Assembly: GCA_023957775.1 (NCBI GenBank)
Contig: JAMLGR010000011.1
Location: 1 to 64,000 of the forward strand
Direction of reading: 5' to 3'
Origin: Fimbriimonadaceae bacterium
GTDB taxonomy: Bacteria; Armatimonadota; Fimbriimonadia; Fimbriimonadales; Fimbriimonadaceae
DNA: 64,000 nucleotides
Shown: positions 19,101 to 34,294 of the stretch, in pieces
How positions within the stretch are numbered: the stretch's first letter is position 1
Layout of the letters: the number at the start of each line of letters is the position of its first letter
Program-made: the position numbers and the translations under genes
Notes under the pieces: model-generated
Told to the model about the DNA's origin: nothing
Database searches by the model: none
The model's input: only the letters and a program-made list of their open reading frames with translations

Positions 19101-19445
19101 ATGAGATACAGAACCGACACACGCGCCTTGGTTCTTGCGGTGCTGGCCGAAGAGCCTTTGCACGGCTACGGCATCTCCAAGGCGATCAAGGCCCGTTCGA
19201 GCAAGGTCCTCAAAATGGGCGAAGGGCAGCTGTATCCCATCCTCCACGAGCTCGAGGAGCGGGGGTGGGTCACCGCGGAGTGGGAGATGCAGGACGAAGA
19301 CCCGCCCCGCCGCGTCTACTCGATCACGGAGGAGGGCGGCGGTGAGCTGAAGCGCCGTTCGAAGGAGTGGGAGACATTCGTGTCGGCCGTAGGCACCGTG
19401 CTGCAGCCGCCCCCTCGCCGCACCCTGGAGCCCGGCCATGAGTAG
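19101..19445 (+). CDS. PadR-family transcriptional regulator
   Basis: A 114-aa winged-helix repressor. The PadR signature is complete: ALVLAVLAEEPLHGYGISKAI, then GQLYPILHELEERGWV and RRVYSITEEG. PadR proteins repress their own operon and are released by a ligand or stress signal. It overlaps the next gene by 8 nt, the usual arrangement with a membrane-protein partner. The operator described upstream fits autoregulation. Confidence 0.93.
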   Translation: MRYRTDTRALVLAVLAEEPLHGYGISKAIKARSSKVLKMGEGQLYPILHELEERGWVTAEWEMQDEDPPRRVYSITEEGGGELKRRSKEWETFVSAVGTVLQPPPRRTLEPGHE

Positions 19446-20331
19446 CCGCAGCGAAGCCTATCTCGCCGAACTCGACCGCCGCCTCGCGCGCCGTGTCGCC
19501 GAGCCTCGCCGAGGCGAGTTGATCGCCGAACTGCGTTCGCACCTGCACCTTCATGCCAATGACACAGGCAGCGAATCCGAGGCCCTCCAACCCCTCGGGC
19601 CCGTGGAGCTCGTGGCTGAGGACCTCATCCGCAGCGAATCGGGCTTGGATGTCAGGTCGCCGTGGCGGTTGGCGGCCCTTCCTTTGGTGTTGCTGGTCCT
19701 GTCTTCAACCATTCCGCTGTTCATGGCTTGGGTGCTGCATTTTGAGAGCCTCCCCTACACGACCGTGCAGATCGGCTCTGAGTACGTGATCCTTGCAGCC
19801 TTCGCATGGTGCGTCTGGCGCTCGCGCCGGTGGCTCCTCCTACCAGTCATCGTGGCGCTTCTATTGATCGATGGGATAGGGCTGGTGTCAATGGCTACCA
19901 CTGGCCCCGTCCTCCACGACAGGCAGGCGATGGATGGCAAGGTAGAAGCACTCAGGGTCTACCGAACATGGCCTCCACCAGCAAACACCGCAGTTGAGGT
20001 GGGCGAGACAGCGGACCGACACAGATACTACGTGCCTGGACGGCGATCCCTGACCTTTCCACGGAGACTTCCCTATGGATTCGGTGTTCATTGGAATCTG
20101 AAAGTGCATGAATACGACACCGTCCTTGGAGCACAAGAGGCACGGAGGAGATGGAAGTCGGAGGGCGGAGCTTTCATGGACCGGGTGCTACTCCAGCTTC
20201 TGTTGATCGTCACTTCGACGTTTTGCTGGAAACTCAGCGTGTTCGCGCTACTCAATGGGTGCCTCCTTAAGTTCCACGCGATTCGCCGCCATTTGATTCA
20301 CCGAAGGAAGGTGTTGCCCAAAGTGTCCTAG
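19438..20331 (+). CDS. Membrane protein encoded with PadR
   Basis: A 297-aa protein. The N-terminal about 65 residues (YLAELDRRLARRVAEPRRGELIAELRSHL) form a charged helical domain like the N-terminal part of DUF1700/HAAS-type and permease-prefix proteins. Helices follow at about 75-105, 112-150 and 245-275, with a soluble loop of about 90 residues between the last two. The start overlaps padR by 8 nt. PadR-linked genes of this kind are thought to be controlled by, or to control, the repressor. The specific role is unknown. Confidence 0.75.
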   Translation: MSSRSEAYLAELDRRLARRVAEPRRGELIAELRSHLHLHANDTGSESEALQPLGPVELVAEDLIRSESGLDVRSPWRLAALPLVLLVLSSTIPLFMAWVLHFESLPYTTVQIGSEYVILAAFAWCVWRSRRWLLLPVIVALLLIDGIGLVSMATTGPVLHDRQAMDGKVEALRVYRTWPPPANTAVEVGETADRHRYYVPGRRSLTFPRRLPYGFGVHWNLKVHEYDTVLGAQEARRRWKSEGGAFMDRVLLQLLLIVTSTFCWKLSVFALLNGCLLKFHAIRRHLIHRRKVLPKVS

Positions 20332-20403: not shown

Positions 20404-22443
20404 CTACACCAGCCGCAAGGGCAAGTCCCGAAGCCCCTGCCCCGTCGCTGCCAGCAGCGCGTTGCGGATCGCCGGAGCGATGGCGACGATCGGGCACTCG
20501 CCGGCGCCGGAGGACGGGAGGTCCTTTCGGTCGAGCAAGACGACCTCGATCTTCGGCACGTCCCCGAAACGCGGGACCCGGTAACGCGAGAGGCGGTCGG
20601 TGAGGAGCTTGCCGTTTCGGTAGTCAATCCTCTCGAAGAGGGCCCCACCGAGGCCTTGAACGAGGGCGCCCAGTATCTGGCTCTCCAAGTGCTTTGGGTT
20701 GACGACGGCGCCGCAATCGAATACGGAGGTCGCGCGCACGACGCGGAACTCCTTGCCGTCCACCGCGACTTCGACCGCGGTCGCGATGAACCCGCCCTTC
20801 TCCGCGCCGCAGGCGATGCCGAAGCCGTGGCCGTCCGGGGCGGGCGTGCTCCAGCCGAATTCCGACGCGCATAGTTCGAGCACGGCCCGCAGGCGCGTTG
20901 TGGGCGTGGGCCCCGTGGGGATCGAATCCTCGGTGAGGTTCTTCAGCCGGAACGCCACCGGGTCCAAACCAGCGAGGCGCGCCAGATCGTCCATATGCGA
21001 CTCGCGCGCGAAGTGGTTGACGGTCGCCCCGAGGGCGCGATACGAGCCCTGGCGAAGTGGCGAAGGACCATTGGTCGAGCGCTCTCTCGGATTCGAAACG
21101 CGGTAGGGCGTGCGCAACCCGGCACCCCCGGGATTCACGGTCTCGAAGGACCACCCCGTCAACATCCCGTGCGCGTCCACGCCAGCGGCAATCTCGATAA
21201 GCGCCGCCGGGCGCAAGTAGGCGAACCGAAACTCCTCGGGGCGGGTCCACGCGACTTTCACCGGCTCCCCGAGCGCATTCGCGATCCGCGCGGCCTCGAC
21301 GGCCGCGTCACCGGTGTGTTTGCCGCCATATCCTGAACCGGTGTCAGGCACGAGGACGCGCACCAGATCCTCGTTGATCCCCAGTGCCTGGGCCACTTCG
21401 GTGCGGACGCCAAAGGGACGTTGCGTGCCCGTGTGTACGGTCATCTTGCCGTCCACCCATTCGGCGAGCGCCGCGCGCGGCTCGAGCGGAACGTGCGCGA
21501 TGTAGGGCGCCGTATAGGTCGCTCGCAGGACGTGGGCTCCGGCGATGGAGCCGGGGTCGCCGAGCGCTTTGCGGAAGTCCTCGAACAACGTGCTTGCCGA
21601 AGGGCCTGGGACCTCGTTCCACTTGGCCTTCAGCGCGGCAAGGCCGGCCTCGGCCTGCCGGCGGGTAGGCGCCGCGACGGCGACAAACTCGCCGTCGCGC
21701 ACCACGTGGGTCCCGGGCAGCGCTTGCGCTGCGGCCTCGTCGATCGACGCCGCCATTGCGCCCAGGGAGGGTGCGCGGAGAACCACCGCGTGGAGCATGC
21801 CGGGCCGCACGAGGTCGGCGCTGTACCGGTGGCTCCCGGTGACGATCGCGCGGCCGTCGACCTTGGGTACCGACCGGCCAAGAACCTTATGTTCTTGGGG
21901 CGCGGTGAGTGCGATGTCCGAGCGGATCGCCCCGTCCAAGGGCTTTCCGGCCACCAGTTCGCCGTAGGTTGCGGAGTGCTCGGGGCGGTCCGTGATGCGC
22001 CCATCCTCGGTACGCAGCCGCGCGCGGTCCACACCCCACTTTTCGGCGGCGCGATCGAGCAGTGCTTCGCGGGCCGCGGCCCCTGCGCGACGCAGTTGGG
22101 GTGCCATCGTGGGGGTCGTTAGACTCCCAAACGTTCCCATGTCGTACGGCACCAGGGCCGTGTCGCCCATCACCATACGAATGGAGTCGATGGGGACGCG
22201 CAACTCCTCCGCGACGGCTTGGGCCAGCGACGTCCGCACGTTTTGCCCCACCTCGACCTTGCCGGTGAGCACCGTGATCTGCCCGTCTTCGCCGATGTGC
22301 AGCCAGGCGTCGATCGTCTGCGGTGCCTCTGCACCGCGGCGCTGGGCAGAGGCCACAGGGCCGACGGCAAGCACGACCATGCCTGCGCCGAGGGCTTTCA
22401 GCACCGAGCGGCGGGACAGCTCCATGCGGCTCTCGAACGTCAT
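20404..22443 (-). CDS. Molybdopterin-binding subunit, xanthine dehydrogenase/isoquinoline 1-oxidoreductase beta type
   Basis: A 679-aa large subunit of a molybdenum hydroxylase. The Tat signal is LSRRSVLKALGAG. Moco-domain features include VGQNVRTSLAQAVAEEL, the TTPTMAPQLRRAGAAAREAL segment, DTGSGYGGKHTG and the C-terminal SGAGECP, whose Glu is the expected catalytic base. These match the isoquinoline/aldehyde-oxidising branch. It overlaps the small [2Fe-2S] subunit gene by 4 nt (ATGA). No FAD subunit is encoded nearby, which is usual for this branch, where a cytochrome c takes the electrons. The substrate is unknown; N-heterocycles or aldehydes are typical. Confidence 0.9.
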   Translation of the reverse strand: MTFESRMELSRRSVLKALGAGMVVLAVGPVASAQRRGAEAPQTIDAWLHIGEDGQITVLTGKVEVGQNVRTSLAQAVAEELRVPIDSIRMVMGDTALVPYDMGTFGSLTTPTMAPQLRRAGAAAREALLDRAAEKWGVDRARLRTEDGRITDRPEHSATYGELVAGKPLDGAIRSDIALTAPQEHKVLGRSVPKVDGRAIVTGSHRYSADLVRPGMLHAVVLRAPSLGAMAASIDEAAAQALPGTHVVRDGEFVAVAAPTRRQAEAGLAALKAKWNEVPGPSASTLFEDFRKALGDPGSIAGAHVLRATYTAPYIAHVPLEPRAALAEWVDGKMTVHTGTQRPFGVRTEVAQALGINEDLVRVLVPDTGSGYGGKHTGDAAVEAARIANALGEPVKVAWTRPEEFRFAYLRPAALIEIAAGVDAHGMLTGWSFETVNPGGAGLRTPYRVSNPRERSTNGPSPLRQGSYRALGATVNHFARESHMDDLARLAGLDPVAFRLKNLTEDSIPTGPTPTTRLRAVLELCASEFGWSTPAPDGHGFGIACGAEKGGFIATAVEVAVDGKEFRVVRATSVFDCGAVVNPKHLESQILGALVQGLGGALFERIDYRNGKLLTDRLSRYRVPRFGDVPKIEVVLLDRKDLPSSGAGECPIVAIAPAIRNALLAATGQGLRDLPLRLV

Positions 22444-22904
22444 CGCGTCGCCTCCTTCGCTGCGGCCGCGCGTTTCACGGCCGCGACGATGCGCGGGTAG
22501 ACCCCGCACCGGCACACGTGGCCTTGCATCCCCTGGGCGATCTGCGCTTCCGTGGGATTGGGGTTGCGCTCGAGCAGAGCCACGGCCACTAAGATCATTC
22601 CTGTGGAGCAGAACCCGCACTGCATGGCGTCCTCGTCGAGGAAAGCCTGTTGGAGGGGGTGCAGCTTGCCCTCCTGCTCTAGCCCCTCGATCGTCCAGAT
22701 CTTGGCGGGCTCTGCGGCGGAGACCGGGACCATGCAGGAGCGCACGGGTTGCCCGTCGAGGAGCACGGTGCACGCGCCGCACTGCGCCTCGCCGCACCCG
22801 TACTTCGCGCCGGTCAGCCCCAGATCGTCGCGTAAGACCTCGAGGAGCTTGGTTTCGGGCGGCGCGTCGACCGTGTGCTCCTTCCCGTTCACATTGAGTC
22901 GCAT
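22440..22904 (-). CDS. [2Fe-2S] subunit of a molybdenum hydroxylase
   Basis: A 154-aa small subunit. The plant-type [2Fe-2S] site reads CGEAQCGAC then C about 12 residues later, and the second site is CGFC...CRC near the C-terminus. Both clusters needed for electron transfer from Moco are intact. The start is the ATG of MRLNVNGKEH, with GGGAG upstream. It has no signal peptide and probably travels through Tat with the large subunit. It is transcribed away from the iorA locus, with about 100 bp between them. Confidence 0.92.
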   Translation of the reverse strand: MRLNVNGKEHTVDAPPETKLLEVLRDDLGLTGAKYGCGEAQCGACTVLLDGQPVRSCMVPVSAAEPAKIWTIEGLEQEGKLHPLQQAFLDEDAMQCGFCSTGMILVAVALLERNPNPTEAQIAQGMQGHVCRCGVYPRIVAAVKRAAAAKEATR

Positions 22905-23008
22905 GGCGTGGCTCCCCCGCTCCTTCCTACCCGATCGGCGCACGGCCGTGTTCCGCCGCCATGAGCCCTGTCATATCGCTCCTCGGGACCTCGGGCCAAC
23001 ATAGAAGC

Positions 23009-24610
23009 ATGCCCACTATGACCGCAAGACTGTTGTTGGGCGACGAGGCCGTGGCGATGGCCGCGGTCGATGCCGGGATCGGCGGCGCGTTCTCCTACGC
23101 GGGCACCCCCGCGACCGAGATTTTCGAATCGATTCAGGCGATGGCGCCCGACGTTTGGGCCGAGTGGTCGGCCAACGAGAAGGTCGCCTACGAGGAGGCG
23201 CTCGGCATGTCCTACGCGGGCAAGCGCGCGCTCGTGTCGATGAAGCACGTCGGACTCAATGTCGCCAGCGACCCCTTCATGAGTTCGGCGCTGACCGGGG
23301 TGAACGGGGGCTTGGTGCTGGTGGTCGCCGACGACCCGGGCATGCACTCTTCGCAGAACGAGCAGGACTCCCGCTTCTATGCGGAGTTCGCCCACCTCCC
23401 GTGCTTCGAACCGAGCACCCAGCAGGAGTGCTACGACATGACGCGCGACGCCTTCCGGCTCTCCGAAGAGTGGGGCGTGCCGGTGATGGTGCGGCTGGTC
23501 ACCCGCCTCGCGCACAGCCGCTCCGGCGTGCACCAGTGGCCGGAGGACGAGCGCGCCCGCCGGGAAACGGCCCTTCCGCTTCCCAATCCGAACGACTGGA
23601 CGCTGGTGCCGATCAACGCGCGTCGGCGCTACCGTCACTTGTTGGACCTTCAGCCTGCGCTGAGAGCCGCCTCCGAAACCTCGCCGTACAACACGCTCGA
23701 ACTCGGCGGCAAGCGGGGCGTGATCTGTGCGGGGACCGGCTCCAACTACGTGCGCGAGATGCTCGGCGCCGAACCGGAAGACTCGCTGCTGCGCATCGGC
23801 CTCTACCCGCTTCCCGAGGCGCTGATCCGCAAGCTGGTGCAGCACTGCGACGAGATCGTGGTCGTCGAAGAGGGGTATCCCTTCATCGAACAGCGCTTGA
23901 ACGGCTTGCTTGGCCTTTCGGGCAAGGACGTGCGCGGCAAACTCGACGGCAGCCTGCCCCCCGACGGCGAGCTCTTGCCGGAAACCGTCGCCCGCGCGCT
24001 CGGCGTCCCGTTGGCGGAGGGTGCCCCCGAAGATCCCATCGTGGCCGGGAGGCCGCCGCAGTTCTGCAAGGGGTGTCCCCACTCGGACACGTTCAACGCG
24101 ATGCTCGACGCCACGCGGGAGTTTCCCCACGCCCTGATGTTTGGAGACATCGGATGCTACGCGCTCGGAATCATGCCTCCGTACCAGGCCGTGCACTCGT
24201 GCGTGGACATGGGCTCGTCCGTCGGGATGGCGCACGGCGCCCGCCGCGCCGGCGCGTACCCCGTGCTCTGCGCGATCGGCGATTCGACATTCGCCCACTC
24301 GGGAATGTCGGCGCTGTTGGGGGCGGTGCACTCGGATGCGGACATCACGGTCCTGATTCTTGACAACGCCACGACGGCGATGACGGGGGCTCAGGATTCG
24401 ATGGCCACCGGTGAGCCGCTGCTTGAGATTCTGCGGGGCCTCGGGGTGAAGGACCTGCATTTGGTGGAGCCTCTACCCAAACACCGGGCGGAGAACGTCG
24501 AGGTCCTGCGCAAGGCGATCGATCACAAGGGGTTGAGCGTGATCGTCGCCCGGCGGGCGTGCATTCAAATTCGGCCGAGCAAGCGGTCGTCCAACCTTCC
24601 AGTGGAGTAG
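23009..24610 (+). CDS. iorA: Indolepyruvate ferredoxin oxidoreductase alpha subunit, lacking the ferredoxin domain
   Basis: A 533-aa TPP-dependent 2-oxoacid oxidoreductase. The pyrimidine-binding half includes FSYAGTPATEIFES and the NEKVAYEEALGMSYAGKR segment. The TPP/Mg half has FCKGCPH (353-358), GDIGCYALG, MGSSVGMAHG and GDSTFAHSG, followed by the ILDNATTAMTG metal loop. Canonical IorA continues with two 4Fe-4S ferredoxin motifs. Here the protein stops about 20 residues after VIVARRAC, so that domain is missing. The ATG at 23009 gives MPTMTARLL; the one at 23018 is an alternative. The next gene begins 2 nt after the stop. Reaction: aryl pyruvate + CoA + oxidised ferredoxin to aryl acetyl-CoA + CO2. 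Confidence 0.88.
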   Translation: MPTMTARLLLGDEAVAMAAVDAGIGGAFSYAGTPATEIFESIQAMAPDVWAEWSANEKVAYEEALGMSYAGKRALVSMKHVGLNVASDPFMSSALTGVNGGLVLVVADDPGMHSSQNEQDSRFYAEFAHLPCFEPSTQQECYDMTRDAFRLSEEWGVPVMVRLVTRLAHSRSGVHQWPEDERARRETALPLPNPNDWTLVPINARRRYRHLLDLQPALRAASETSPYNTLELGGKRGVICAGTGSNYVREMLGAEPEDSLLRIGLYPLPEALIRKLVQHCDEIVVVEEGYPFIEQRLNGLLGLSGKDVRGKLDGSLPPDGELLPETVARALGVPLAEGAPEDPIVAGRPPQFCKGCPHSDTFNAMLDATREFPHALMFGDIGCYALGIMPPYQAVHSCVDMGSSVGMAHGARRAGAYPVLCAIGDSTFAHSGMSALLGAVHSDADITVLILDNATTAMTGAQDSMATGEPLLEILRGLGVKDLHLVEPLPKHRAENVEVLRKAIDHKGLSVIVARRACIQIRPSKRSSNLPVE

Positions 24611-24612
24611 CG

Positions 24613-27567
24613 ATGCGACACGATCTGGTGCTGGCGGGCGTGGGGGGGCAGGGGATCCTCACCATCGCGCGCGTGCTCTCGTTGGCGGCCGAGGCCAAGG
24701 GCTTACACGTCAAACAAGCCGAGGTGCACGGCATGTCCCAGCGGGGCGGGGCCGTGTACTCGCACCTGCGCATCTCCGACGGCGAGATCTACAGCGACCT
24801 CATCCCGCGCGGGCGGGCCGACATGGTGCTGGCGGTCGAGCCCGTCGAGGCGCTTCGCTACGTGCCGATGCTGCGCCCCGACGGGGCGGTGGTTTCGAAC
24901 AGCAAGGCCCTCACCAACATCCCGAACTACCCGTCGATCGAAGACGTGCTCGCGCACATCGGCGCGTTCGAGCGCCACGTCGCGTTCGACATGGACCGAT
25001 TGGGCCGCGCGGCAGGAAGCCCATTGGCCGCGAATATCGCGGCGCTGGGCGCGGCGTCGCTGTTCCTAGGCTTCTCCGCCCACGAGTTGGAGGAGGCGGT
25101 CGTCGCCCTCTTCACGGCCAAGGCGCCGCGGGTGGTCGAGACCAACGTGCGCGCGTTTCGATTCGGGCGTCTGGCGGCCACGCGGTACACCGAGGCGCTG
25201 CAGCGCGGCGCCACGCCACGCGTCGCCCGGGAGTGGATCGAGTCGATGCCGCCCGAGGACCTCGAATCTCCGGAAGCCGAAGTTCCCACGGCCGAGGACG
25301 CCACGCGCCTCACCGGCGCCGAGGCGCACGCCTTCGAGAACCTGCTCCAGGAGGCCTACGAGGAGGAGCGCGCCCAGCTCTACGAGCACGAGGTGTACAA
25401 CCTCATCGAGTTGGTGGGTGCGATCTCGCCTCCGCGCCACACGTTCGTTCCCCGCGGTTCGACGATCGACCCCGACGTGCTGGCGCAGTATCCGGGCGAT
25501 CGCGTGGTGGTGAAGCTTGTGTCGCAGGACGTCGTGCACAAGACCGAGGCCGAAGCGGTGGCCTTTGTGGCGAAGCACCCGGACGCGGTCGACGAGACGA
25601 TCAAGCGCCTGCTGGCAAAGGTCGGGGAGTCCGCCAGGGTCGCCGGCACGCTCGTCGTCGAGTTCGTGGAGCACGACACGCGGGGCCTGGGCGGGGAGCT
25701 TTTCGTCGGCATCCGCGCTTCGCGGGAGTTCGGTCCCGTCATCGCGGCGGGTCTGGGGGGACAAGACACGGAGTATCTGGCGACGAAGATGCGCCCCGGC
25801 GTGGCGGTGGCCAAGGCCGTGGCCATGGACACCGACGCCGAGACGTTTCTGGAGATGTTCCGTGCGACCGCGGCCTACGATGTGCTCGCGGGCAACGTGC
25901 GGGGGCACGAACGCGTGGTGTCGGATGCCGAGCTGCTGCGTTGCTTCCAGGTGTTCCTCTCGATCGCGCGCCGGTTCTGCGTGGACCGCGGCGAGGAGGG
26001 GCCCGATCTGGCCGAGCTCGAGGTGAACCCCTTCGCGTTCCGCAACCAGCGCTTGGTGCCCTTGGATGGTCGAGGCCGGTTGGGCACCGCTCCGGTCGCC
26101 GCCCCCGTTCGGCCGGCGGATCAGGTGGCGTGCCTGCTGAAACCCGGTTCCATCGCGCTCACCGGAGTCTCGAGCAAGCCCGGGAGTTTTGGGAGGATTC
26201 TTCTGGGGAACGTCTTGGCCGCGGGATTCGACCCCGAGCACGTGACGGTGGTGAAGGAGGGCGTGGAGTGCCTCGACGGGGTGCGCTGCGTGCCGTCTCT
26301 CGACGCGCTGCCCGGCCCGACGGACCTGCTGGTGATCGCGGCGCCCGCGGCCGCGGTGCCGGAGATCGTCCGAGAGGCGAATGGGTCGGGGAAGGTGCGC
26401 TCCGCGATCATCATTTCGGGGGGCGCCGGGGAGACCCCGGGTTCGGAGGAGATCGGTGCCGAACTTCGCGAGGCCATCTGCTCCGGTCGCCAGAGCGGCA
26501 AGAGCGGCGCGGTGTTCCTCGGTCCGAACTGTATGGGATTGCGGTCTCGCCCGGGCAAGGTGGACGCGTTCTTCCTTCCCGAAGACAAGCTGCCTCGATC
26601 TCGCGAAGGGGAGGGACGACCCCTGGCGCTGCTCTCCCAGAGCGGGGCGTTCATCGCCGCGCGCCTCAGCAGTCTGCACTACCTCGAACCGAGAGTCTCG
26701 GTGTCGATCGGCAACCAGGCCGACGTCACGGTCTCGGATCTGCTCAACACGCTCGCCGTGGGCGACGAGGTATCGGTCGCCGGCGTGTACCTGGAGGGCT
26801 TCGCGAACCTTGACGGGTTGGAGACCGTGCGCGCGATCGCGAGGTGGCGCGCGGCGGGGAAGACCGTCGTGTTCTACAAGGCTGGCCGCACGGAGACCGG
26901 CCGAAGCGCGGCCGCGGGCCATACCGCCGCCGTGGCGGGCGACTACGACGTGTGCCTCGCCGCGCTGGAGAGTGCGGGGGCGCTCGTGGCGCACTCGTTC
27001 CGCGAGTTTGGGCAGTTGCTGGAGGTCGCGGCGCTCGGCGCGGAGTGGAACGTGCGGGGGAGCCGGTTCTTCGGGATCACCAACGCGGGGATGGAGGCGG
27101 TGGGCATGGCCGACGCCCACGCCGATTGGACCCGGCTCGACGGGCCTTTCGAGGGAGTGCTCCAGGAAACGCTGGGTCGATTTGGGTTGGATGCTTTGGT
27201 TTCGGCACGCAATCCGCTCGACGTCACCCCAGCGGCCGACGAGGACGCGTACGATGCGCTCGTGCGTTTGACGCTCGATCGGGAGGACGTGGACGCCTTG
27301 GTGGTGGGCTGCGTGCCGCTTGCGCCGAGTCTGCGGACGCTCGAGGGCCAACTGGGGGACCCTGCGGCCTTTCCCGCTCGGGCGGCCCAGTGGCGCGCGT
27401 TGAGCGACAAACCGCTCGTCTTCGTCGTGGATGCGGGCCCGTTGTACGACCCCTTGGCCGCCGCGCTGCGGGGGCAAGGGGTTCCGGTCTTCCGCTACGC
27501 CGACGAAGCCGTGGCGGCGCTCGCCCGCTGGGTGGCGCGCGCTCCTTGTCTATGGCATGGAGCCTGA
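24613..27567 (+). CDS. Fusion: indolepyruvate oxidoreductase beta + ADP-forming acyl-CoA synthetase (beta then alpha)
   Basis: A 984-aa fusion of three modules. Residues 1-190 are the IorB/2-oxoacid oxidoreductase gamma-type domain (GVGGQGILTIARVL, AEVHGMSQRGGAV). About 240-490 is the ATP-grasp beta subunit of an acetate-CoA ligase (ADP-forming), with VVVKLVSQDVVHKTEAEAV at 298-316 and LEVNPF at 469-474. About 505-984 is the CoA-binding/ligase alpha subunit, with IALTGVSSKPGSFG, FLGPNCMG, LLSQSGAF, and H770 in GRSAAAGHTAAVAG at the position expected for the phospho-histidine. The fusion would convert aryl acetyl-CoA + ADP + Pi to aryl acetate + ATP + CoA. The beta-then-alpha order differs from the alpha-then-beta order I know for fused synthetases. 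Alternatively the C-terminal part may be regulatory. Confidence 0.87.
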   Translation: MRHDLVLAGVGGQGILTIARVLSLAAEAKGLHVKQAEVHGMSQRGGAVYSHLRISDGEIYSDLIPRGRADMVLAVEPVEALRYVPMLRPDGAVVSNSKALTNIPNYPSIEDVLAHIGAFERHVAFDMDRLGRAAGSPLAANIAALGAASLFLGFSAHELEEAVVALFTAKAPRVVETNVRAFRFGRLAATRYTEALQRGATPRVAREWIESMPPEDLESPEAEVPTAEDATRLTGAEAHAFENLLQEAYEEERAQLYEHEVYNLIELVGAISPPRHTFVPRGSTIDPDVLAQYPGDRVVVKLVSQDVVHKTEAEAVAFVAKHPDAVDETIKRLLAKVGESARVAGTLVVEFVEHDTRGLGGELFVGIRASREFGPVIAAGLGGQDTEYLATKMRPGVAVAKAVAMDTDAETFLEMFRATAAYDVLAGNVRGHERVVSDAELLRCFQVFLSIARRFCVDRGEEGPDLAELEVNPFAFRNQRLVPLDGRGRLGTAPVAAPVRPADQVACLLKPGSIALTGVSSKPGSFGRILLGNVLAAGFDPEHVTVVKEGVECLDGVRCVPSLDALPGPTDLLVIAAPAAAVPEIVREANGSGKVRSAIIISGGAGETPGSEEIGAELREAICSGRQSGKSGAVFLGPNCMGLRSRPGKVDAFFLPEDKLPRSREGEGRPLALLSQSGAFIAARLSSLHYLEPRVSVSIGNQADVTVSDLLNTLAVGDEVSVAGVYLEGFANLDGLETVRAIARWRAAGKTVVFYKAGRTETGRSAAAGHTAAVAGDYDVCLAALESAGALVAHSFREFGQLLEVAALGAEWNVRGSRFFGITNAGMEAVGMADAHADWTRLDGPFEGVLQETLGRFGLDALVSARNPLDVTPAADEDAYDALVRLTLDREDVDALVVGCVPLAPSLRTLEGQLGDPAAFPARAAQWRALSDKPLVFVVDAGPLYDPLAAALRGQGVPVFRYADEAVAALARWVARAPCLWHGA

Positions 27568-32804: not shown

Positions 32805-33521
32805 GTGGACGTGGAGGCGGTTGTCGAGCAGGTTCGCATGGATCTCTTGGAGGTCTCCAAGCCGGGGCGCGCCGAGTTTGAGAAGCGGTATCTCAAAAGC
32901 AGTTTGGAGTTCATCGGCGCGCCGGTGCCCGAACAGGCCAAGCTCGCCAAGGCGCTCTGGCGAGCGATCAAAGGGTGTTCGCGGCAGGAGATGTGGGGCC
33001 TCGTCGAGGCGATGTGGAAGACCCGTGTCCACGAGATCCGCGGGGTGGCGTTGGACTTGTTGGCCCTCGCTCCTGCGCTCGTCACGAAGCGCGATCTTCC
33101 GCTCCTGCGTCGCTGGGTGATCGAGTCGAATGGCTGGGCGCACGTCGACACGATCGCCACGTCGATACTGCCCGCGGTGATCGCCGCGGACCCATCGGCG
33201 CTTACGGTGATGGATCGCTGGGCACTGGACGCCAACTTTTGGGTCCGCAGAGCCGCGATGCTGTCGCTCCTCCTGCCACTCAGGCGCGGTGACTTGGGCC
33301 AATGGGAGCGTTTCGTCGCGTACGCCTCTCCCCAACTGGGCGAGAAGGAGTTCTTCATCCGAAAGGCGATCGGGTGGGTGCTCCGCGAGACCGGCAAGCG
33401 TCAACCTCAGGTCGTCTTCGAGTTCCTGATGGAGCACCGGAGCGCAGTCTCGGGATTGACGCTCAGAGAGGGTGCCAAGTACCTGCCTCCTGCGATGCGA
33501 GCCGACCTAGGACTTCCCTAG
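32805..33521 (+). CDS. DNA alkylation repair protein (AlkD-like)
   Basis: A 238-aa all-helical HEAT-like protein. Family landmarks are WRAIKGCSRQEMW, ESNGWAHVDTIATSILP, WALDANFWVRRAAMLSLL and FFIRKAIGWVLRETGK. AlkD-type enzymes excise bulky or cationic alkylated bases. I chose the GTG at 32805 over upstream TTG because a -10-like CATACT is correctly spaced and the conserved sequence starts there. Its stop overlaps the convergent PEP-CTERM gene in a CTAG. Confidence 0.88.
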   Translation: MDVEAVVEQVRMDLLEVSKPGRAEFEKRYLKSSLEFIGAPVPEQAKLAKALWRAIKGCSRQEMWGLVEAMWKTRVHEIRGVALDLLALAPALVTKRDLPLLRRWVIESNGWAHVDTIATSILPAVIAADPSALTVMDRWALDANFWVRRAAMLSLLLPLRRGDLGQWERFVAYASPQLGEKEFFIRKAIGWVLRETGKRQPQVVFEFLMEHRSAVSGLTLREGAKYLPPAMRADLGLP

Positions 33522-34294
33522 GACTGCTTTCGCGAGGCTCGTCGCCGTCGGTACGCCGCCCCGAGGCCCATGGTTCCCAGCGCCATCGTGATCGGCTCAG
33601 GAACCGGACTGTTGGTCATCGCCACCAAGCCGATGTTCTGCGAGAGCTCGGGGCCGCCTCTAAGGGCGACCGTTGCGCCGCTGGTGACCGAGATGTCGTG
33701 GCCCCAACCGTAGGTGAAAGTGGTTACGCCGGCATGCAGAGGATGGACACCCGCATCGACCGTCACATTGAGCGTGCTCGACGGATCGATCCAGGCACCC
33801 CCGATGGAGATGCCATAGAGCGAAGTCAGGCTATTCCATGCGGCGGATTCAGCAGCCGCATTTCCAAAGTCTCCCGTCCCGCAGGCCAGATAGACCGATC
33901 CGCCTCCTACAATGTAGGTTGTCAGCGCGGTCAGGTTCGCGGCGACATCCGCGCGACCGATGGCGCCCGCCAAGAACACCGCATCGTAGGCCTGAAGCTG
34001 AGCAAGGGTGAACGTGGTCGAGGTGTCGGTGGTGAAGGAGTAGCCTGCCGTGGTCAACGTGGTAGCAAGTGTCGTCCCATTGAAGAGACCGTTATTAGAC
34101 TTCCGAAGGATGCTCCCGCTCGAGCCGATGAGCTGCTGAGCAACGTTGTTGGCAAACGCGTTCGTGGACGCGGCGTTGTTGGTGAAGGCGTAGTCCGAAA
34201 GAGACCACTCGTCGCCACACACAATCAAGCGCCCCTGAGCCGAGGCCAGCGACGCGCCCGCAACGATAATGAGACAAACTCCCAGCCCTTTCAT
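33518..34294 (-). CDS. PEP-CTERM sorting-domain protein
   Basis: A 258-aa secreted protein. The signal peptide is about residues 1-19 (VCLIIVAGASLASA). The middle is Ala/Thr/Ser/Asn-rich and resembles a glutamine-amidotransferase-like fold (QAYDAVFLAGAIGRADV, GGGSVYLACGTGDFGN), as in some PEP-CTERM proteins. The tail reads VPEPITMALGTMGLGAAYRR plus basic residues. A GGAGG ribosome site lies upstream. Function unknown; probably an exported surface protein. Confidence 0.85.
   Translation of the reverse strand: MKGLGVCLIIVAGASLASAQGRLIVCGDEWSLSDYAFTNNAASTNAFANNVAQQLIGSSGSILRKSNNGLFNGTTLATTLTTAGYSFTTDTSTTFTLAQLQAYDAVFLAGAIGRADVAANLTALTTYIVGGGSVYLACGTGDFGNAAAESAAWNSLTSLYGISIGGAWIDPSSTLNVTVDAGVHPLHAGVTTFTYGWGHDISVTSGATVALRGGPELSQNIGLVAMTNSPVPEPITMALGTMGLGAAYRRRRASRKQS

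Follow-up and report, generated by a model that had tools for sequence, protein, structure and literature searches.

In a 3.5 Mb Armatimonadota assembly, the beta subunit of an indolepyruvate:ferredoxin oxidoreductase (IOR) is fused, in a single 984-aa frame, to both parts of an ADP-forming acyl-CoA synthetase, directly downstream of iorA. The link between the two activities is strongly supported, and iorA and the fusion probably constitute one enzyme unit, a tethered arylpyruvate oxidoreductase and ADP-forming arylacetyl-CoA synthetase in which the oxidative direction is favoured. No report of an IorB-synthetase fusion was found in the open-access literature, and the architecture appears not to have been previously described.

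The iorA-fusion locus

The features of the gene pair, as placed in the 64,000-nucleotide stretch of DNA analysed here (the window), are as follows.

23018-24610, + strand: iorA, IOR alpha subunit, short form, ~530 aa from M20 (TIGR03336, POR_N, TPP_enzyme_C, fold match)
24065-24067, 24074-24076, 24155-24157 and 24560-24562, + strand: codons of the invariant IorA cysteines C369, C372, C399 and C534
24613-27567, + strand: iorB-acd fusion gene, 984 aa (ORF, profile matches, relatives)
24643-25170, + strand: IorB module, POR/gamma-type domain, residues 11-186 (PF01558, E 9e-35; NF005324)
25171-25353, + strand: linker, residues 187-247, comprising a C-terminal tail of IorB and then the first synthetase helix (alignment, predicted structure)
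25354-26073, + strand: synthetase beta part, ATP-grasp, residues 248-487 (PF13549, E 1e-21; 1wr2, Z 24.6 over 237-492)
25537-25539, + strand: His309 codon; the residue corresponds to the phospho-histidine on the ATP side, H535 of Nmar_0206 (aligns with the HKT of 9y43)
26149-26544, + strand: CoA-binding subdomain, residues 513-644 (PF13380, E 2e-13)
26620-27024, + strand: Succ_CoA_lig subdomain with the swinging phosphohistidine loop, residues 670-804 (PF13607, E 6e-30)
26920-26922, + strand: His770 codon; the residue corresponds to the swinging phosphohistidine, H256 of Nmar_0206 (aligns with SHTG in 4xyl and 9y43)
27070-27552, + strand: C-terminal ligase subdomain, approximately residues 820-980 (alpha-part fold match)

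The fusion ORF extends from an ATG at 24613 to a stop at 27565-27567, and an alternative GTG start at 24559, 5' of this ATG, falls within iorA. The two genes form a tight pair, as the iorA stop codon (TAG, 24608-24610) is followed 2 nt on by the fusion ATG. The iorA frame is open from 22961 to 24610 and lies directly upstream of the fusion, in line with the first-pass annotation, which had put the two genes side by side; translation probably starts at 23018, since the relatives align from M20 and this residue is nearly invariant. The three-module composition that the same annotation had assigned to the frame was likewise recovered, with all four Pfam domains in order and above their curated cut-offs (POR/IorB, 11-186; ATP-grasp_5, 248-487; CoA_binding_2, 513-644; Succ_CoA_lig, 670-804), and the same architecture occurs in ~20 genomes. 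GC3 was 0.82-0.91 throughout the fusion gene, the linker and every module included.

Clustering of neighbouring genes identified no conserved neighbourhood of the fusion beyond iorA. Upstream, a divergent molybdenum hydroxylase pair (20404-22943, - strand) points away from iorA, with a large subunit carrying MoCoBD_1/2 and a small subunit whose translation contains a CGEAQCGAC [2Fe-2S] motif; the pair was not seen beside other fusions in the neighbour clustering. Elsewhere in the window, a PadR-type regulator and, after it, a HAAS-domain membrane protein constitute a typical regulator pair (19101-20331, + strand), and a secreted protein (33518-34294, - strand) ends in a PEP-CTERM-like sorting signal, VPEPITMALGTMGLGAAYRRRR, read from the translation alone. 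The whole genome contains five POR-domain matches. Two further POR-domain frames occur on the same contig past the window (G000:C11:103949-110768), one of which is a PFOR-like frame of 1222 aa with Fer4.

The oxidoreductase subunits

IorA scored 524.7 bits against TIGR03336, below the cut-off of 650.9, with a match covering positions 3-542 of the 595 in the profile, and its Pfam domains were limited to POR_N and TPP_enzyme_C. The C-terminal 2[4Fe-4S] ferredoxin domain was absent, the C-termini having one conserved cysteine and no CxxCxxC. The IorA model aligned with whole-length PFORs (Z ~29, ~500 residues), and C369, C372, C399 and C534 were cysteine in 77 of 77 aligned IorA sequences. By analogy with the OFOR family, these four residues are proposed as putative ligands of a single proximal [4Fe-4S] cluster. 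IorA combines the features of the OFOR superfamily (TPP domains, proximal-cluster cysteines and the PFOR fold match), and PorA- and PorB-like parts are fused in it as in the IorAB of P. furiosus, methanogens and Bacteroides. Compared to classical IorAB, the two-cluster ferredoxin domain is missing from IorA and IorB is joined to an acyl-CoA synthetase. A single proximal [4Fe-4S] cluster without a ferredoxin domain, as proposed for IorA, is found in StOFOR of Sulfolobus (5b46/5b48); in StOFOR, unlike in the pair described here, the gamma and PorA parts are joined and the substrates are pyruvate and 2-oxoglutarate (PMC5020499). The single-cluster OFORs of Sulfolobus depend on an external ferredoxin (PMC5020499).

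Residues 1-192 of the fusion passed the curated cut-off of NF005324, 'indolepyruvate oxidoreductase subunit beta' (241.4 bits; cut-off, 222), and fell short of that of TIGR03334 (143.7 bits; cut-off, 205.8). We take the IorB module to correspond to the domain of PFOR that closes over CoA. Fold searches with the whole 984-aa model gave lists filled by the synthetase, with no separate IorB row, and have no bearing on IorB. Because IorB passes a family cut-off and IorAB is ~50% identical to Bacteroidales IorAB adjoining a PaaK-type ligase, we infer from sequence that the oxidoreductase acts on an arylpyruvate. This type of ligase has been confirmed in Bacteroides as an arylacetate-CoA ligase (PMC13285125). 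The same two observations argue against other 2-oxo acids, such as branched-chain ones, serving as substrate with the synthetase acting on the matching acyl-CoA, in which case the 'indolepyruvate' label would be wrong. Such substrates would be consistent with IorA and the synthetase both scoring under curated equivalog cut-offs, and with a gut OFOR set in which indolepyruvate use was not predicted by sequence (PMC13290082); overall, we consider them improbable.

The synthetase half and the proposed reaction

The AlphaFold model of the fusion protein (pLDDT, 90.6; pTM, 0.87) matched 9y43, the 3-hydroxypropionyl-CoA synthetase of N. maritimus, over 690 residues (Z 35.2, rmsd 4.1), and the alpha part (residues 501-982) matched 8wzu (Nmar_0206), 4xym and 4xyl (ACD1) at Z ~39. 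H770 was located where the first-pass annotation had placed it, the VVHKTEAEAV motif that it had named spans residues 307-316 and contains His309, and H309 and H770 were invariant in every fused or unfused relative with residues at those positions. Together with the fold match to solved ADP-forming synthetases, this invariance upholds the earlier proposal of an intact synthetase. Phosphotransfer through two histidines has been described for Nmar_0206 (PMC11494057). The CoA-binding, ligase and ATP-grasp subdomains of the ADP-forming superfamily (ACD1, 4xyl; 9y43; Nmar_0206, 8wzu; PatZ; DddX) were all present, as were both phosphotransfer histidines. The fusion protein differs from these enzymes in the oxidoreductase subunit attached at its N-terminus, in identity (23-27% over structure alignments) and in the motif of the H770 loop, which in the fusion's group reads GHTAxVAGDY. 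The beta-then-alpha order of the synthetase, regarded as unusual in the first-pass annotation, was rejected as a novelty because the solved 9y43 has the same order; the Archaeoglobus acetate-CoA ligase family model also aligned collinearly across most of the synthetase. The synthetase scored far under all curated equivalog cut-offs, and acetate specificity was not supported, given 206 bits against TIGR02717 (ADP-forming acetate-CoA ligase alpha subunit), for which the cut-off is 567.

In the proposed reaction, IorA, with TPP and its single [4Fe-4S] cluster, would act together with the IorB module in the CoA-dependent oxidative decarboxylation of an aromatic 2-oxo acid, which could be phenyl-, hydroxyphenyl- or indolepyruvate, and ferredoxin, as a protein of its own, would receive the electrons. 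The resulting aryl-acetyl-CoA would be accepted by the synthetase that IorB carries as a tether partner, phosphate would be transferred to His770, then to His309 and then to ADP, and the aryl-acetate would be released; the whole cycle would be reversible. We infer that ferredoxin is the electron acceptor, that IorA and the fusion form a joint complex and that transfer takes place between their sites. That the two proteins operate as one machine, in which the CoA ester leaves the TPP site for the phosphohistidine site of the tethered synthetase as a single-complex process in bacteria, in either direction, is more speculative, and we hold it to be doubtful. If true, one bacterial complex would combine 2-oxo acid decarboxylation with substrate-level phosphorylation or, in reverse, drive reductive carboxylation with ATP.

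Distribution and origin of the fusion

With overlaps removed, the fusion was present in at least ~20 genomes from the Armatimonadota, the Planctomycetota and Myxococcota/'delta' MAGs. Within the window's phylum (291 genomes searched), it occurred in nine genomes, all of one family, with a tenth partial match, and it was found in 3 of 392 sampled Planctomycetota. Ten MAG contigs among the best 80 of 591 matches carried it, mostly Phycisphaerales/Planctomycetota, plus one Myxococcales and one 'delta' MAG, and the true count may be higher. An assembly join at the linker, a possibility flagged by the first-pass annotation, was excluded because the same single open frame, without stops, occurs in these ~20 independently assembled genomes; the chance that the fusion is an assembly or frame artefact is negligible.

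The same three genes occurred as a separate, adjacent iorA-iorB-acd trio at 18 loci in the Aminicenantota, the Acidobacteriota (Thermoanaerobaculia and Holophagae), CSSED10-310, a proteobacterial MAG and others, with gene spacing at many loci of -4 to 79 nt, including 4-nt overlaps, and an unfused adjacent trio was also present in two Planctomycetota. This arrangement is likely the pre-fusion state. In a tree of IorA and IorB (76 rows, quick method, SH-aLRT support alone), the 16 fused loci formed one clade (SH-aLRT, 100) and the fused label changed once. The synthetase tree was congruent, with the triad and fused synthetases in one clade (98) and the fused synthetases together (100), except for L034 (Phycisphaerales), whose synthetase is nested among them and lacks iorAB in the stretch examined. 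Within the sample, these sequence trees show a single origin of the fusion. The synthetase can persist alone, as seen in L034 and in some Planctomycetota with a related synthetase and no iorAB within the several kb read. The fusion may have arisen by loss of the stop codon between neighbouring genes, since the unfused Acidobacteriota IorB bears a C-terminal tail that, compared by eye, is similar to the linker.

Loss of a stop codon could also have fixed no more than 1:1 co-expression, with no hand-over of the CoA ester, an explanation to which we give somewhat less than an even chance. Fusion would be an easy step because the unfused operon genes overlap by 4 nt or are close together, and the linker is less conserved (0.57) than the modules (0.60-0.74). 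The IorB-to-ATP-grasp linker is, against this explanation, 61-66 aa in 17 of 17 aligned fusions across three phyla and contains predicted helices (202-211, 214-218 and 235-250 in the AlphaFold model), and L034 represents the single split or loss seen within the fused clade; neither observation is proof of channelling.

Two variants of the unfused locus were observed. The order in L126 and L127 (Planctomycetota) is acd-iorA(-iorB), which suggests that the trio has been repeatedly rearranged. In a Thermoanaerobaculales MAG (L047:1694-3600), the synthetase is present as two overlapping ORFs, probably owing to a frameshift in the assembly or in the gene.

Direction of the reaction

Prephenate dehydratase, chorismate synthase and a haem-copper oxidase gene are all present in the window genome, where no PF02153 prephenate dehydrogenase was found, and prephenate dehydratase is kept in the four other Armatimonadota carriers examined. 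Among the Planctomycetota, prephenate dehydratase (PF00800) was missing from 12 of 12 genomes with the fusion or a related unfused synthetase, compared to 158 of 392 overall (hypergeometric P 1.4e-5, genomes counted without correction for relatedness). Chorismate synthase was present and prephenate dehydratase absent in the carriers G292-G295, G297 and G301, most of which also lacked prephenate dehydrogenase, while prephenate dehydratase was present in G291, a Planctomycetota carrier outside the 392-genome sample, and in G296. The Aminicenantota carriers examined may be auxotrophs living on amino acids, as they mostly lacked chorismate synthase too (G307 has it). The missing aromatic genes fit either amino-acid-consuming auxotrophs, in which the pair would run oxidatively and make ATP, or the salvage of aryl-acetates by reductive carboxylation.

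In such a salvage, the synthetase would spend ATP to activate aryl-acetates and IorAB would reductively carboxylate the CoA ester to an arylpyruvate for Phe/Tyr. This reverse use also fits because many carriers outside the Armatimonadota lack prephenate dehydratase, including all 12 of the Planctomycetota and several carriers that retain chorismate synthase, and the IORs of methanogens and Bacteroides are thought to run reductively (PMC13285125, PMC6737245). It is countered by the retention of prephenate dehydratase in the Armatimonadota carriers, G291 and G296, by the possibility that the Aminicenantota are plain auxotrophs and by the 40% of sampled Planctomycetota that lack PF00800 regardless, so that another route may exist. 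Reverse use is rated as unlikely, if a serious contender, and the oxidative, ATP-forming direction is ahead in this host, given its prephenate dehydratase and chorismate synthase.

Other pairings of IOR with CoA-ester enzymes

The gene fusion is strong evidence that the two steps belong together, and it ties the VAGDY-motif subfamily of ADP-forming synthetases to IOR in several little-studied phyla. It can guide the annotation of synthetases otherwise labelled by acetate, and the two-gene system is suited to testing the coupling of 2-oxo acid oxidation to ATP or, run backward, aromatic amino acid salvage. The same two-step chemistry has been proposed for archaeal peptide fermentation, with IOR and an ADP-forming synthetase, and for the IOR/ligase clusters of the Firmicutes (PMC13285125), but with separate proteins in both. 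According to a 2026 paper, ADP-forming ligases (PF13607) occur in the vicinity of IOR clusters in the Peptostreptococcales, and activity on phenylacetate, hydroxyphenylacetate and indoleacetate is reported there for a C. difficile ligase linked to a related oxidoreductase (PMC13285125). Independent pairings were also observed here. In a genome from the window's order (G038), the gene for a distant ADP-forming synthetase immediately precedes a classical IorA-ferredoxin-IorB fusion. In the Bacteroidales the same short iorAB as in the window precedes an AMP-forming ligase plus an ACT-domain protein in some cases and an aminotransferase plus a CoA hydrolase/transferase in others. From these arrangements, the CoA-ester partner is exchangeable, while its pairing with IOR recurs.
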